64,000 nt of DNA from Nitrospirales bacterium (GCA_029261295.1 JAJDBP010000017.1:124001-188000); one strand, 5' to 3'. Shown: positions 31,735 through 41,701, counted from the stretch's first letter. The notes: generated by a model from the letters alone, not told the origin. Translations and numbers: made by a program.

Positions 31735-32673
31735 TTACCAGGAACGAGGAATCTCATCTTCATCATCTCCGGTATTTCCTTCGGTATCCCGGATAAACTT
31801 TCCTGGTCCAAGCTCCTCCGATAAATCTTCCGTTAGATCTAGATCTTCGTCAGCTTCGTCGGCTAAATCTTCCTCAAAATCATCATCTGCAAAATCATCA
31901 TCAAGGTTTTCTACTGCCAAACTTTCTGAATCTTCGTCCAAGTCAGATGTTAAGGACTCAAGAGTAATATCTCCATTACTTTCTACTTCAATACCCAACT
32001 CAGCATCAATATCATCGGGAAGGACCGCCTCCGTCACCCCAACTACCAAAGTAGAGGCAACCTCTTTTTTACCAGGAGCAATGGCCAATGTCTTTGAATC
32101 CTCTGCCGCAGATTTAGAAGCACCTTTTTCCCCCGGTGCCTTCTCAACGGGCTTCTTGGCAGACCCCACGACTTTTTTCACGACACCTACAGACTTCTTC
32201 GTCTTTGCGGCAACTTTGGTGACCTTAGCAGGCTTAGAAACTTTGGAGGCCTTCACTCTCGGCTTGGCCTTGGGTAGGGAACTCACCTTGGTCTTTTTTT
32301 TCGCAGATACACCTGTAGCTTTAACAGGTGTAGCCTTTTTTTTCGTTGGAGTTTTCTTGGAAACCGGCTTAGTCTTTTTCACATTCGGCTTGGGTTTGGT
32401 CTTTTTCGTCACGTTGGTCAATGTTTTCACTTTCCTTTTCACTACTTTTTTAGGCGTCGCTTTGGAGCCTGCAGAAGCTTTCGTCGTTCGCTTAGCTTTG
32501 GATTGAGATTTCGCACCAGCCTTGGCTTTTTTAGGTTTGGGCTTGGCCTTTTTGGACACAGCCGCTTTGGCTTTTACGGGCTTCTTTGACACAGACTTTG
32601 ACTTCGTTGCCACCTTTTTCTTCGTCTGAGGTTTGGGCTTGGCCTTTGACTTGGGCTTAGCCTTAGCAGCCAT
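31735..32673 (-). CDS. Histone H1-like lysine-rich protein with an acidic C-terminal half
   Basis: A 312-residue protein with two opposite halves. Residues 1-~190 are almost entirely Lys/Ala/Pro/Thr/Val with KPKAK- and KKTK-type repeats, as in bacterial H1-like proteins, and should bind DNA or RNA. Residues ~205-312 are strongly acidic (DDDFADDDFEEDLADEADEDL) and can shield or mimic nucleic acid. AGGAGG lies upstream of the ATG. A charge-split protein of this type may be a nucleoid or chaperone-like factor; the exact role is unknown. Internal repeats make gene-length variation among strains likely. Confidence 0.85.
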   Translation of the reverse strand: MAAKAKPKSKAKPKPQTKKKVATKSKSVSKKPVKAKAAVSKKAKPKPKKAKAGAKSQSKAKRTTKASAGSKATPKKVVKRKVKTLTNVTKKTKPKPNVKKTKPVSKKTPTKKKATPVKATGVSAKKKTKVSSLPKAKPRVKASKVSKPAKVTKVAAKTKKSVGVVKKVVGSAKKPVEKAPGEKGASKSAAEDSKTLAIAPGKKEVASTLVVGVTEAVLPDDIDAELGIEVESNGDITLESLTSDLDEDSESLAVENLDDDFADDDFEEDLADEADEDLDLTEDLSEELGPGKFIRDTEGNTGDDEDEIPRSW

Positions 32674-35578: not shown

Positions 35579-35619
35579 ACTCCCCCGGAGTTCAGAGCCT
35601 TTTCTTCCTTCGCTTGCCA

Positions 35620-36933
35620 ATGCACATCCCCTCCTCTATTCCTTCAACCCAACCCACTGGCATTCGCTGGAGAATTCTCTTTCTCCTGCTCCTCATTAGC
35701 ATCGTCACTTACATCGACCGGGTGAACATTTCCGTCACCGCCCGACAGATGATGCCCTCCTTGGGACTCACCGACATTCAAATGGGGTGGATCTTTTCAG
35801 CATTCGTCTTGGGATATGCGCTCTTTCAAGTGCCCGGTGGATGGATGGGCGATCGATGGGGACCACGGCGAGTGCTGACATTTGCGGTTATCTGGTGGTC
35901 AATCTTCACAGCCCTCACCGCCATTGCTCCAACGCTCCCCCTTGTTAATCTCATCGGCATCATGGGGTCACTCATGGTCGTACGATTCCTGATTGGAATT
36001 GGTGAAGCCGCCGCCCTACCCAACTTCAATCGATCAATTGCCAATTGGCATCCTCCGCAAGAACGCGGCTTAGGCATTGGCATCACCATCGGCGGCATCG
36101 GCATCGGCTCAGCACTCACCCCACCCGTCACAGCTTGGATCATGGTGAACTATGGCTGGCAAACCGCCTTCTATGCTGCGGGACTCCTAGGCCTCGTGAT
36201 CGCACTTCTCTGGTATTGGTATGCCACGGATCTTCCCCGTCAACATCCTCACGTCAACGAAGCCGAAGCCGCCATCATTGAAGGGAAAGACCAAAAGAAG
36301 GAGAACCCTCAAAAATCAGACCACGTCCCCTGGAGAGCCATCCTCACCACCCCCACCGTCTGGTGGCTCACCCTCAGTTACACATGCTTGGGATATGTGG
36401 CCTACATCTACATGTCCTGGTTCTATTTATATCTCGTCAACGTCAGAGGCTTTGCCATCCTCCAAGGTGCCTTCTTCGCCTCCGCCCCATTCATCGCGAT
36501 GACCATCTTTTGTCCATTGGGCGGCTGGGTCACAGATAGGCTATCAGAAAAATATGGTATCAATTGGGGAAGAGCGAGCGTGGGTGGAACGGGGATGATC
36601 CTAGCCGCGTTCTTCATCATTATTGGAGCCAATGTCGAAGCGCCCTATGTGGCCATCGGATTCTTATCCTTAGGCGCTGGTTGGCTCTACTTCACGGTTG
36701 GCCCATTTTGGTCTGCTACAACCGATCTCTCCAAACCTTATTCAGGGACACTCTCTGGCCTGATGAACACCGGCGCCAATCTAGGTGGCACACTCTCACC
36801 AACACTGACCCCCTGGATAGCAGACACGTACGGCTGGCCCGTCGCTCTCGGTCTCGCCGCAGCCATTGCCTTAATTGGTGGATTGTGTTGGCTTATGATT
36901 CGGCCCGGATACGGATTAAACATCGGCAAGTAA
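35620..36933 (+). CDS. MFS transporter, anion:cation symporter-like
   Basis: A 437-residue major facilitator with twelve predicted membrane helices. The start is set at ATG 35620 rather than the upstream TTG. The N-terminal YIDRVNISVTARQMMPSLGLTDIQMGWIFSAFVLGYALFQVPGG is the pattern of the ACS family (hexuronate, glucarate, phthalate, sialic acid transporters): YxDRxN in helix 1 and the WxxSxFxxGYxxFQxPGG in helix 2. The motif DRWGPRRVLT is loop 2-3. The true substrate cannot be told from sequence and no sugar-acid genes are near. It precedes the large nuclease-NTPase gene by 18 bases on the same strand. Confidence 0.88.
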   Translation: MHIPSSIPSTQPTGIRWRILFLLLLISIVTYIDRVNISVTARQMMPSLGLTDIQMGWIFSAFVLGYALFQVPGGWMGDRWGPRRVLTFAVIWWSIFTALTAIAPTLPLVNLIGIMGSLMVVRFLIGIGEAAALPNFNRSIANWHPPQERGLGIGITIGGIGIGSALTPPVTAWIMVNYGWQTAFYAAGLLGLVIALLWYWYATDLPRQHPHVNEAEAAIIEGKDQKKENPQKSDHVPWRAILTTPTVWWLTLSYTCLGYVAYIYMSWFYLYLVNVRGFAILQGAFFASAPFIAMTIFCPLGGWVTDRLSEKYGINWGRASVGGTGMILAAFFIIIGANVEAPYVAIGFLSLGAGWLYFTVGPFWSATTDLSKPYSGTLSGLMNTGANLGGTLSPTLTPWIADTYGWPVALGLAAAIALIGGLCWLMIRPGYGLNIGK

Positions 36934-36951
36934 GTAGAGAGAGTCTGAATA

Positions 36952-39900
36952 ATGCCTGAACCTGATTCACCAGCTGTTACAACATTTAGCGCTGACGAGA
37001 CACTGGGACGCGCTGCTGGCCTTCCCCTGCATCTTCCGGGTGATCCCAGACGGCAAGCCGTCCCCTCAATTCAAGGGACCGTCTATCAAGCTTGGTGTTC
37101 GATCGACGCCTGGCTGCGGCTAACTGATGCCAATGAGGCGATCTATTTGGAAGGAGCAGAAGACTTCGATGTTGCTAGATCCGACAGCGTTACTACTGTG
37201 CAAGTTAAAAAAAACGCAGGCTCTATTTCCTTAGGCACTGCGAAGGCTCACGAGGCTCTGGAGAACTTCTGGACCCTGTCCTGCAACGAATCTTCACGAC
37301 AGATTGATTTTCACTACCTGACCACCAGCACTATTGCCATGGAGAAGGACGCAAATTTCGATGGGCTTCAGGGTATCGAAGCTTGGCGGGTAGCCCGGAC
37401 AAACCCTGAGACAGCCAGTCAAGTCAGCGCGTATCTCGTAACGAAGCTTGGGGTTAATAGCCCTTTGCGAGCATTTCTTGAGACCGCAACGCCTGCTGTT
37501 GTCCAGGAACGTCTTATTCAACGATTTTACTGGTTCACAAACCAACCAGATCTTGAAGTTATCAAACTCAGTGTTGATAACCGTATCACGATACTCCTGG
37601 AGGGTCAGCGACGCTCTGTGACTCTCACTTCGAATGTTAGAAAATATCTGGAATCTCGTTTTTGGGAAGTAGTAATTGAATCACTACCTTCCAATAGATG
37701 CTTGACGCGAGGCGATTTGTTACGGCAAGTCGAGTCCGCCACGACTTCGTACCTTCCTGTACCAATTGATCAGTTGCCAGGCCTTATTGGCAATACACCT
37801 CCTGGCTTGAATTTACTCACCCTCTTAATTCAGAAATGTCCCACACCCCCTGACCCACTCCTCAAAAGACCGACGCTCACACGGCATCTGGAAGAGTTGG
37901 TTAAACAACGTCGAGTCATATTGCTAACCGGTTCAGTTTACAAAGGTAAAACGACACTCGCTCAGCTTGTGGCTTCAAGGATTTGCCCCACGGCATGGTG
38001 GATTAACTTAACCGAACGAAAACTGAACGAGGTAGACAATCTATTCCTTGCACTAGCCAGCCAAATCGAAAGTGGGGATTGTCCCAATCTGATCATAATT
38101 GATGATCTGGATATCAATCCAAAAGCTCATCATGCATATAAAGACTCGCTTCGGTTAGTTTTGGCCAGAGCCAACACAACAGGGCGCGGAGTTATTCTCA
38201 CTGCTCAAGGTGCCTCTAGCAATTCGGCTGTTGTTGATGACTTCATCAATATCGAACTTCTTGATGTGCCTGAATTGAGCACCGCGGAGGCTAAAGATTT
38301 GTGCCGAGAGCATGGGTGTCCAGAAAATTGCTCCCAAGACTGGGGCAAGTTGGTGACGATGTGGACAAGGGGACACCCCAAACTGGTCCAGGTTCGGATT
38401 GCTGAACTCGCCGCTCGTGGTTGGCCAAATCCCTCTTATCTTGACTTGACCACACAGTCTTCTGCTTTGACCACAGCACGGCAGATGGCTCGGCAGCTAC
38501 TCAGTGAGACGGTGCCGAGTCCCACTGTGGAGTTCGTTTATCTGGTATCGGAATCCTCCGTGCCTATGAATCGAGAAGTTTTAATCCGATTGGCCGAAAC
38601 CGTTGAGGGCCTGACAAATGCTGGCGATGTTTTGGACAAACTCGTTGGGAAATGGCTTGAGCAGATAACGGTTAACTATTTCCGTGCTACTGCACTCCTT
38701 CAAGGAGTTTCTACCGAAGTATGGTCGCAAGAGAAACGCAAACAAGCCCACATTCGTCTTCACGACGCTATTCGAGCCAAACAACCCCTTGAGCCATCGG
38801 AGGCAGCTGCTCTTCTTTTCCACGCATACCTGGGAGGAGAATCCGACCGGCTCGCAAGCACAGCGATAACATTACAATTAATTAAGGACCATCAAGCAAA
38901 ACGCGAGGTTGAGCGACAACTCCAATGGCTCTCCCTCGTCGCGCTCGAGAGTGGACAGACCCTGGTAGAAGATGGAATGACTGGAGCAATTCTTCGAGGC
39001 CTGCAATTCCAAGTAGCTTCGACCCTGGAGTCCGATAGCCTTCCTGAAATTTGCGAACGATGGGCAGATGACGTCGAGAGGTTACAGTCGACTGAGGGTA
39101 AATCGCTCATGTTGGCGACCATGTTCTTCTCTATTGGCCTTTCTCAAAGCATTAACGTCTCGCTCAAACCACGCCTAAAGGCAATACGTGGCATTTCTAT
39201 GATGCCGAGTGAACTACTCGAGCAGCAAACGGCTGGCATGAGACAAACCTTGGAGGAGCTTGATCCGACAGAAAAGTTTTTCAAAAATGCCACATTAGCT
39301 CAAAAAATGCTTCTCTTAACGACTCTGAATATTCGTGACATGAGAGGCCTCGACTATCTATTACAGTGGTTAGATAACACGGCATCAGAGGATCTTCGCC
39401 AACAGCTCGATTCGATGTTGGAGTGGCCGCCCGTGCAAGACCTAGGTGCATTTGTACAGGGCGCCTGGGCTGCCAATCACGAGGAAACACAGAACTGGGA
39501 ACCTTGGCTGGCACTCTTTGAGCGAATAATCGAGTATGCAAAGCGGCGGGTATCACCTCGACTTGGCAGGGAAGCGGTCAAAGCCAAGGCAATTATTCTC
39601 ACGGAGTATCTCGAACGAGATGAGGATGCATTGTTACTGCTGGATCAGGCTGATACTGCCTTCGGATCTTCGCCTATACTACTAGAACAGCGAGCCAATG
39701 TTCTTTTTTATCGGAAAGACGATGAGACAGTTCTTAATATCTGGAATCAAATGACCTCCGACACAGAGAGCAAGACCTCACTTGATCCGTTCGCACACCG
39801 ACGCGCGGGTGTTAGCGCAGCTCGACTCAAGCGGTGGGATGAGGCAGAACAGATCTTTACTTCAACGGCCGATTCCTTAACTCCCAGGGCCCTAGACCTC

Positions 39901-41019
39901 CTTAAGTTTGGCCTGCAAGTGGATGCAGCACTCGTCACGTCCTTTGCTGGCAACCAGGCTAGAGCCGCTGGGAAATTAGCCAATGCTATTCTAGCCTTAC
40001 CTTCGGAAGCATCTAACGATGGAAATCCCTACTGGGAAGCCGTTTTGCGAGTAACTGTGGAAGTTTGCTTAATTATAAAGAGAGCCACATGGAAACAGGG
40101 TGAAGCTGGGTCACGAATTCAACCTGGCGATGCAAGCTCTCCTATTTTAAAAGTTTCTAGTGTCACACCTAGACAAGCAGTTCGTTGTGAAAAGACCAAA
40201 GCACAGGTGCTATTTATTGCGACGACATTAGGGGTAGGGCCATCTTCCATTACCAACGAGCTCGAGACTTTAATTGCTTCAAGGTATATCCATGTCCGAT
40301 GGCGCACGTCAGAGGCACGCCTTGCACTATCGTATGCCAATGGCAGTGGATTTGGCTTCATTCAGGCGTTAGTGAATTTTGAGACAGCATGGGCCGACAT
40401 ATCCACCAGGGAGGAGAGCCTAACCATCCTGGAGCCAGACGATGGACCAGCAACTAATCTCGTGATCGCACCGGAACGCTGGTTTGGTCTGTTGGTTGCC
40501 GGAATCATCTGCAGTGGCTCTCACCTGATGGCCCACCTTGAAATATGGCTAGAAGAAAGCAAGAAGGAACTCGGGGGCGATGCTGCTTTAACAAACGCAA
40601 TACGATTGGTTATCGATGGGGCTTCACGTCCAACTGAAATTCTTGAGGCAACCGTTATCACTACAGCAAATGCACCTACGGTACGTTGTGGTGCAGCTGC
40701 GAAATTCCTGATGGAATTTCCAGTTGCCAGTAAGACCCTGCAGTTACAGGCCCTCCTTACTTCAGCACTCATGGGTGATGTCAGCTTTTCTCGGCAAGAG
40801 ATCTTTAACATCCATGTCGCGCAACGTTTCGCTTCTTCCTGGCTTGTGCATGCGGAAAATCGCTTCCAGTTTTCCACCCCACGCACATCTGTTCCCGCCC
40901 TGCTCCACGCTATAAAAGAGGTTGAAGAGGGAAATGGTACCTTAAGGCTTCTACTCCAGGCTGCTGGAAGTGCGCTCAATCAGTCTCTAGATGACGAGAT
41001 CATGAAACGTCTACTCTAG
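36952..41019 (+). CDS. Putative antiphage STAND NTPase with N-terminal DUF4297/Cap4-like nuclease domain
   Basis: A 1355-residue protein in one frame. Region 1 (~40-240) resembles the DUF4297/Cap4 PD-(D/E)XK nuclease: GTVYQAW at 42-48, the acidic motif LEGAEDFD at 66-73 and QVK at 84-86, with the usual spacing between Asp and QxK. Region 2 (~310-560) is a P-loop NTPase: Walker A GSVYKGKT at 327-334 and Walker B LIIIDDLD at 380-387, followed by a C-terminal helical part as in STAND/AAA-type ATPases. Region 3 (~600-1355) is almost wholly alpha-helical with TPR-like pairs (for example RRAGVSAARLKRWDEAEQIF) and would be the target-sensing part. Together this is the nuclease-STAND-repeat architecture of Avs-like defence proteins. 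It is not accompanied by other defence genes or cyclase genes. ATG follows the MFS stop by 18 bases with no strong ribosome binding site. Confidence 0.75.
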   Translation: MPEPDSPAVTTFSADETLGRAAGLPLHLPGDPRRQAVPSIQGTVYQAWCSIDAWLRLTDANEAIYLEGAEDFDVARSDSVTTVQVKKNAGSISLGTAKAHEALENFWTLSCNESSRQIDFHYLTTSTIAMEKDANFDGLQGIEAWRVARTNPETASQVSAYLVTKLGVNSPLRAFLETATPAVVQERLIQRFYWFTNQPDLEVIKLSVDNRITILLEGQRRSVTLTSNVRKYLESRFWEVVIESLPSNRCLTRGDLLRQVESATTSYLPVPIDQLPGLIGNTPPGLNLLTLLIQKCPTPPDPLLKRPTLTRHLEELVKQRRVILLTGSVYKGKTTLAQLVASRICPTAWWINLTERKLNEVDNLFLALASQIESGDCPNLIIIDDLDINPKAHHAYKDSLRLVLARANTTGRGVILTAQGASSNSAVVDDFINIELLDVPELSTAEAKDLCREHGCPENCSQDWGKLVTMWTRGHPKLVQVRIAELAARGWPNPSYLDLTTQSSALTTARQMARQLLSETVPSPTVEFVYLVSESSVPMNREVLIRLAETVEGLTNAGDVLDKLVGKWLEQITVNYFRATALLQGVSTEVWSQEKRKQAHIRLHDAIRAKQPLEPSEAAALLFHAYLGGESDRLASTAITLQLIKDHQAKREVERQLQWLSLVALESGQTLVEDGMTGAILRGLQFQVASTLESDSLPEICERWADDVERLQSTEGKSLMLATMFFSIGLSQSINVSLKPRLKAIRGISMMPSELLEQQTAGMRQTLEELDPTEKFFKNATLAQKMLLLTTLNIRDMRGLDYLLQWLDNTASEDLRQQLDSMLEWPPVQDLGAFVQGAWAANHEETQNWEPWLALFERIIEYAKRRVSPRLGREAVKAKAIILTEYLERDEDALLLLDQADTAFGSSPILLEQRANVLFYRKDDETVLNIWNQMTSDTESKTSLDPFAHRRAGVSAARLKRWDEAEQIFTSTADSLTPRALDLLKFGLQVDAALVTSFAGNQARAAGKLANAILALPSEASNDGNPYWEAVLRVTVEVCLIIKRATWKQGEAGSRIQPGDASSPILKVSSVTPRQAVRCEKTKAQVLFIATTLGVGPSSITNELETLIASRYIHVRWRTSEARLALSYANGSGFGFIQALVNFETAWADISTREESLTILEPDDGPATNLVIAPERWFGLLVAGIICSGSHLMAHLEIWLEESKKELGGDAALTNAIRLVIDGASRPTEILEATVITTANAPTVRCGAAAKFLMEFPVASKTLQLQALLTSALMGDVSFSRQEIFNIHVAQRFASSWLVHAENRFQFSTPRTSVPALLHAIKEVEEGNGTLRLLLQAAGSALNQSLDDEIMKRLL

Positions 41020-41233
41020 TTAGGATAAGATCTGTATTATTGATAATCGAAAATGATTCGAGAGGGTATGTCCTTTCTCAGACGAGAAAAAAAATACGAC
41101 TCCATTGATCATGCGAATAGTTTAATCCCAAAATATGTGAAAGCATTGCTCCCAATTTTCCAATGCTATATCAATGACAGTGCATACTGGACATTTCTAA
41201 TTTTCCCCAACCCATAAACCATGAAAGTTGCCC

Positions 41234-41701
41234 ATGCAAATTTGGGTTGATGCTGATTCCTGTCCGAAGGTAATAAAAGAAATTTTGTTTCGTGCCGCGG
41301 ATCGAACGGCAGTGCAGGTGACGCTTGTCGCGAATCGGCTGTTACATGTTCCGGCTTCTCCCTATATTTCTGCCATCCAAGTAGCTGATGGGTTTGATGT
41401 GGCTGATTCCGAAATCGTGAAAAGACTTGAAGTTGGCGACCTGGTCATTACAGCCGATATTCCGCTAGCCGCAGAGGTCATCGAGAAGGGGGGGCATGCG
41501 CTTGATCCACGCGGTGAAATGCATTCGGCCGATACGATTCAAGCCAAACTGACGATGCGGGATTTTATGGAAACACTCCGGGCCAGCGGTGTCGAAACGG
41601 GCGGGCCTTCTGCGATAAACCTACGTGATCGGCAATTATTTGCCAAACATCTCGATCACTATCTGCTCACCATCGCCAAGCAGAACAATGAAAAGGAATA
41701 A
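41234..41701 (+). CDS. YaiI/YqxD (UPF0178, DUF188) family protein
   Basis: A 155-residue PIN-like protein. The start is set at ATG 41234 ([16 protein letters not shown]), the family's N-terminus; an upstream TTG would add two residues. The motifs WVDADSCPK, then [22 protein letters not shown], then [14 protein letters not shown] with catalytic-type acids are diagnostic of DUF188. It is likely a nuclease-like fold of unknown function. A 214-base spacer with no gene separates it from the defence-like gene. Confidence 0.92.

Follow-up and report, generated by a model that had tools for sequence, protein, structure and literature searches.

Avs proteins are tripartite and join an effector, a STAND module and a C-terminal repeat sensor (PMC12931631). 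The nuclease effectors of Avs1-4 cut phage and host DNA upon recognition of phage packaging proteins (PMC12931631). The phage proteins recognized by Avs1-5 include terminase, portal, JADA and Ksap1. DUF4297-HerA is a double-stranded DNA nuclease system of abortive infection (PMC11291478).

We analyzed a 64,000-nt stretch of DNA from a Nitrospirales bacterium (GCA_029261295.1 JAJDBP010000017.1:124001-188000), hereafter the window, with positions counted from its start. An earlier note on this DNA had described a single gene for a 1355-residue protein with the motifs LEGAEDFD ... QVK, GSVYKGKT and LIIIDDLD followed by C-terminal helical repeats, and had suggested the nuclease-STAND-repeat architecture of Avs proteins. 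The reading frame starts with ATG, encodes 1355 amino acids and has zero internal stops; all of the motifs are at the claimed places and are conserved in 47 homologues. The protein has a three-domain anatomy of nuclease, STAND NTPase and helical solenoid (Table 1), and thus the effector, STAND and C-terminal repeat sensor order of the Avs proteins.

Table 1. Positions of the features in the window.
Feature	Positions	Strand	Basis
Single gene for a Cap4-like nuclease / STAND NTPase / helical-solenoid protein	36952..41019	+	ORF and homologues
Cap4/DUF4297-type PD-(D/E)XK endonuclease domain, ~residues 34-265	37051..37746	+	PADLOC, Pfam, fold matches
Nuclease active-site motif L66-E67-x-A-E70-D71-F ... 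Q84-V-K86	37147..37209	+	conservation, model
STAND NTPase and winged-helix region, ~residues 291-640	37822..38871	+	fold matches, Pfam
Walker A G327-SVYK-G332-K333-T334	37930..37953	+	G332, K333 in 47/47
Walker B LIIID384-D385-LD	38089..38112	+	D384 in 45/47
STAND GxP motif G474-H-P476-K-L	38371..38385	+	conservation
All-helical solenoid, putative sensor, ~residues 641-1355; TPR-like near 880-1050	38872..41016	+	AF2, TPR matches
Left border of variable slot: MFS transporter (PF07690)	35614..36933	+	Pfam, synteny
Right border of variable slot: YaiI/DUF188 protein (PF02639)	41228..41701	+	Pfam, synteny
Segment missing from orthologous MFS-DUF188 interval of G007; approximate insert limits	36924..41201	.	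DNA comparison

Nuclease, STAND switch and solenoid

A Pfam search with the single 1355-amino acid sequence was nearly blind, and a family alignment was required. The alignment contains 47 homologues with an identity to the window protein that ranges from 74% to 17% overall. Fourteen of its columns are invariant (A36, G42, Q46, W54, L66, E67, A69, E70, D71, Q84, E131, W145, G332 and K333). Because the nuclease and Walker motifs are invariant or nearly so across such divergent homologues, they are not chance occurrences. Comparison of the full gene with the 74% identical homologue gave a dN/dS of 0.22, indicating purifying selection.

In the nuclease domain, LEGAEDFD spans residues 66-73 and QVK residues 84-86. 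Glu67, Ala69, Glu70, Asp71 and Gln84 are present in 47 of 47 homologues and Lys86 in 45 of 47. When the single sequence was compared with PADLOC profiles, LmuA (1.1e-8, residues 34-286) and DUF4297 (1.5e-7) were matched; NCBIfam DUF4297_antiphage gave a weak match to the protein that stayed under the family cut-off. Among 34 homologues, the LmuA profile matched 31 and the DUF4297 profile 30, and the Pfam Cap4_nuclease model was matched by 10. The AlphaFold2 model places Glu67, Asp71 and Gln84-Lys86 on or beside three core strands (63-66, 72-75 and 79-86) of a PD-(D/E)XK fold. The N-terminal PD-(D/E)XK fold that had been proposed is clear, with VIA Z scores of 18.2 to the DUF4297 protein of HerA-DUF4297 (9c1m), 17.4 and 17.3 to LmuA (9nxx and 9hr5) and 14.5 to Cap4 (6vm6). 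With this core fold and the conserved E/D...Q-x-K residues, the domain is a member of the Cap4/DUF4297 PD-(D/E)XK nuclease superfamily.

The second domain is a STAND NTPase, as it combines Walker A (GSVYKGKT, residues 327-334), Walker B (LIIIDDLD, residues 380-387) and GxP motifs with an Apaf-1/CED-4-like fold. In the GxP motif, His475 is found in 42 and Pro476 in 41 of the 42 homologues that have a residue at the position. Structural comparison matched CED-4 (4m9s, Z 18.2 over residues 292-631) and Apaf-1 (5juy, Z 17.4), and Pfam assigned nSTAND3 to 11 and AAA_16 to 11 of 34 homologues. For residues 1-640 taken together, the top Foldseek match in the PDB was Avs3 in its phage terminase-bound structure (8dgc_A, E 2.7e-13, 728 alignment columns), in line with the suggested architecture. 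The AlphaFold2 model of these residues was built with 46 sequences and has a pLDDT of 86 and a pTM of 0.54, the placement of the nuclease relative to the STAND domain being uncertain.

The C-terminal helical repeats were borne out by an AlphaFold2 model of residues 560-1355, an all-helical solenoid with a pLDDT of 88.5 and a pTM of 0.77. The earlier note had not been able to place the repeat domain, a point that needs revision: it is partly placeable, being TPR-like in its central part according to both profiles and structural matches. Sequence profiles locate TPRs at about residues 880-1020, and some of the 34 homologues searched match TPR Pfam models. In structural comparisons the solenoid matched generic TPR-type proteins, and its scores were modest (E no better than 2.2e-4, Z no higher than 10); for this reason we describe the solenoid as TPR-like and do not assign it to a specific known sensor. 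No Avs entry is among its best listed structural matches, which is still compatible with relatedness. The solenoid is on the whole less conserved than the nuclease and switch, with mean majority-residue fractions of 0.31-0.39 versus 0.39-0.46. Apart from a short N-terminal tail, conservation in the family is lowest at residues 641-830 and 1051-1355, as would be expected of a ligand-reading part; residues 641-830 also diverge fastest between the two closest homologues.

Genomic setting and distribution of the family

The earlier note had viewed the gene as a solitary insertion, with a transporter on one side and a housekeeping gene on the other. The insertion holds, as homology to sister sites ends at 36923, within the last MFS codons, and restarts before DUF188 at 41202 (41157 in one sister). 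What does not hold is its singularity, since the site is a recurrent variable locus and not a one-off. MFS and DUF188 neighbors share a contig in eleven sister genomes (L111-L121), separated by intervals of about 0.8 to 9.7 kb. The slot holds no large gene in G007, an HNH-like protein (judged by eye only) in G006, a pentapeptide-repeat protein in G009 and two tandem TIR proteins in G011. In G019 it contains a trypsin-SUMF1 protein and a PD-Lambda-3_A-like protein, and in G020 the gene for a SIR2 protein precedes that for a 911-residue protein, the two jointly matching both ends of Dsr1. The MFS-DUF188 interval (window 36933-41228) is therefore a recurrent variable slot with exchangeable, partly defense-type contents. 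The 74% identical homologue in G018 probably resides in the same slot, because it adjoins the same trypsin-SUMF1 gene that is found there in three sisters.

Several other features of these intervals were observed. The Dsr1-like system is split into a 400-amino acid SIR2 protein and the 911-amino acid protein with a 4-base overlap (L120:1956-5890); either the system naturally consists of two genes or a frameshift has interrupted Dsr1. At about 1450-1600 of L111, a tiny lysine-rich ORF (MGDKGGKKDKDKAQKQK...) precedes a GC-rich palindrome, and similar spots recur in L114, L120 and L121; a search of the window for these patterns found none. In the G002 interval (L121), two copies of a transglutaminase-like gene surround an insert with genes for a radical SAM protein and for two large proteins of unknown kind, and a truncated DUF188 fragment lies alongside.

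The protein occurs in 4 of 98 related genomes, namely that of the window, a second from its genus (74% identity), a third from another family (65%) and a distant fourth (25%). Its absence from the other 94 speaks against a conserved housekeeping gene, the alternative raised in the earlier note. A phylum-scale search added one further copy only, which is broken; weak phylum-wide matches at about residues 295-405 are generic P-loops and were excluded from the homologue count. A scan of genome contigs gave 0 matches with the single protein as query and 54 loci with the alignment. These loci lie in species genomes of Nitrospirota, Pseudomonadota, Thermodesulfobacteriota, Poribacteria, Myxococcota, Planctomycetota and others. 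Phyla are intermixed in the tree, with Nitrospirota in two separate places, but this is a quick tree and metagenome binning errors could inflate the mixing. The near relatives of the window protein include proteins from Pseudomonadota and Thermodesulfobacteriota with 55-60% identity. Judged from these sequence comparisons, the family is sporadic and spreads horizontally.

Close relatives stand alone between unrelated core genes, which differ for each of them (type IV pilus genes, pseudouridine synthase/ResB, aconitase and uracil-DNA glycosylase). DNA similarity to the homologue of the same genus is limited to 36948-41056, the gene and little else, and the gene thus seems to travel as a one-gene mobile unit. 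Its composition does not support a recent transfer, as its GC content (0.497) is close to that of the window (0.477). Carriage by phages or prophages was not seen, since the viral contigs and phage records searched contained no homologue; plasmid records gave 13 distant partial matches. Loss accompanies gain in the family, because a decayed homologue in Nitrospira ACE_NIT12 (L054:8001-9491) keeps residues ~22-97 and ~931-1355, has lost the middle (98-930) and carries a frame change. Five loci (L080, L081, L084, L086 and L090) form a long-branch group of proteins of about 1250 amino acids that have the same nuclease domain and a shorter, divergent C-terminal region, and that may be a separate sensor class.

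Individual neighborhoods of distant homologues contain type III restriction-modification, MADS, Gabija, Fic, Hhe and other defense genes. PADLOC matches to mad8 were set aside as having no meaning for the family, being a short P-loop match (314-395) in the member examined. As a rough baseline, just two of the remaining 54 large ORFs in the window had PADLOC matches at E<=1e-10, one for an RmuC-type protein and one for an IetA/TRIP13-type AAA protein. Elsewhere in the window, 31735-32673 (-) encodes a 312-amino acid protein whose front half is rich in lysine, alanine and proline and histone-H1-like, and whose tail is very acidic.

Predicted function and alternative readings

We think it likely that the gene encodes a single-protein, Avs-like intracellular phage sensor that acts by Avs3-like abortive infection. 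At rest, the STAND module would keep the protein inactive. Upon binding of a phage-made protein to the C-terminal solenoid, the STAND NTPase would bind ATP and oligomerize, and oligomerization would join the N-terminal Cap4-type nuclease domains into an active assembly capable of degrading double-stranded DNA. The infected cell would then be killed or arrested ahead of phage release. We infer the phage trigger, the ATP-driven oligomerization, the DNA cleavage and the abortive outcome from Avs3, LmuA and DUF4297.

A STAND architecture does not give the identity of the trigger, and the protein might instead be a receptor for a cue other than a lytic phage, such as a plasmid, a gene transfer agent or prophage, or internal stress, still with DNA cleavage and cell death as the outcome. 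Two reports bear on this reading, one on a bacterial NLR-like system that controls gene transfer agent release (PMC13236601) and one on Lamassu, which has an LmuA nuclease like that of the window protein, as an anti-plasmid/phage system (PMC10586767). However, both the slot and the distant neighborhoods carry antiphage-type genes, and the closest fold match to the whole N-terminal half, Avs3, is a structure bound to phage terminase; we therefore consider a non-phage cue rather unlikely. The nuclease domain, with LmuA and DUF4297 as its best profiles, could also belong to an effector of the Lamassu or DUF4297-HerA type, dependent on a partner (SMC-like LmuB or HerA) encoded elsewhere. Such dependence is very improbable for a protein that has its own NTPase and solenoid, that has neither HerA nor LmuB in its window and that has the isolated close relatives described above.

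The start codon is 18 bp past the MFS stop codon, so that the two genes could be co-transcribed and the protein could serve in the regulation of transport. This operon can hardly be credited and is largely refuted by independent distribution: 19 of the 21 genomes of the genus have the MFS gene, and nearly all of these lack the nuclease-STAND gene, and homologues elsewhere have other neighbors. Decay to a functionless remnant, as the internal truncation of the Nitrospira ACE_NIT12 relative might suggest, is highly unlikely for the window copy, which is full length, retains all catalytic residues and has a dN/dS of about 0.2. Returning to the phage sensor, its family might be a distinct Avs-like lineage beyond Avs1-5, present in eight or more phyla, Nitrospirota and Poribacteria among them, with a solenoid that senses phage proteins of a class new as immune triggers; we put this forward tentatively, as a serious possibility and not as an expectation.

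Comparison with known systems

The nuclease domain of the window protein resembles that of several systems of which the protein is not a member. LmuA of Lamassu (9nxx, 9hr5) has a similar nuclease domain and is the best PADLOC profile in the family, but it partners with the SMC-like LmuB, whereas the window protein fuses NTPase and sensor in one chain. DUF4297-HerA (9c1m, 8xav) shares the nuclease fold and a profile match but uses a separate HerA hexamer, in contrast to the STAND NTPase present in cis. Cap4 of CBASS (6vm6) has the same nuclease fold (Z 14.5), but the window protein has no SAVED domain and no CD-NTase neighbor. Searches of the window found no LmuB, the slot neighbors being MFS and DUF188, no HerA and no CBASS cyclase. 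Membership in Lamassu, DUF4297-HerA and CBASS was rejected because these partners and domains are absent and the rest of the protein consists of STAND and solenoid.

Among the Avs proteins, Avs3 (AVAST type 3; PDB 8dgc) has the same order of Cap4 nuclease, STAND NTPase and helical repeat sensor, and Avs5 (e.g. PaAvs5) shares the STAND superfamily (nSTAND3-like) and a TPR-containing C-terminal sensor (PMC12931631). Avs3 differs in its length of about 2000 residues versus 1355 and does not appear in the list of best matches to the window protein's solenoid; Avs5 has a Sir2 NADase effector in place of a Cap4-type nuclease. The Avs1-5 profiles (PADLOC v2.0.0, 2023) matched neither the window protein at E<=1 nor any of 34 homologues at E<=0.01, and for this reason the protein is not filed as Avs1-5. 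A literature search with incomplete coverage found no description of the exact family, which large-scale prediction papers may list without a name.

This Cap4-STAND family is thus widely scattered and unlabeled as Avs by a standard defense library (PADLOC 2023), and it draws attention to a variable slot where Nitrospira-type bacteria exchange antiphage genes. Its trigger, if found, would test whether the lesser-studied Avs-type sensors recognize packaging proteins or something new. The Avs-like architecture is known; what the sequence comparisons add is a family that the Avs profiles do not recognize.
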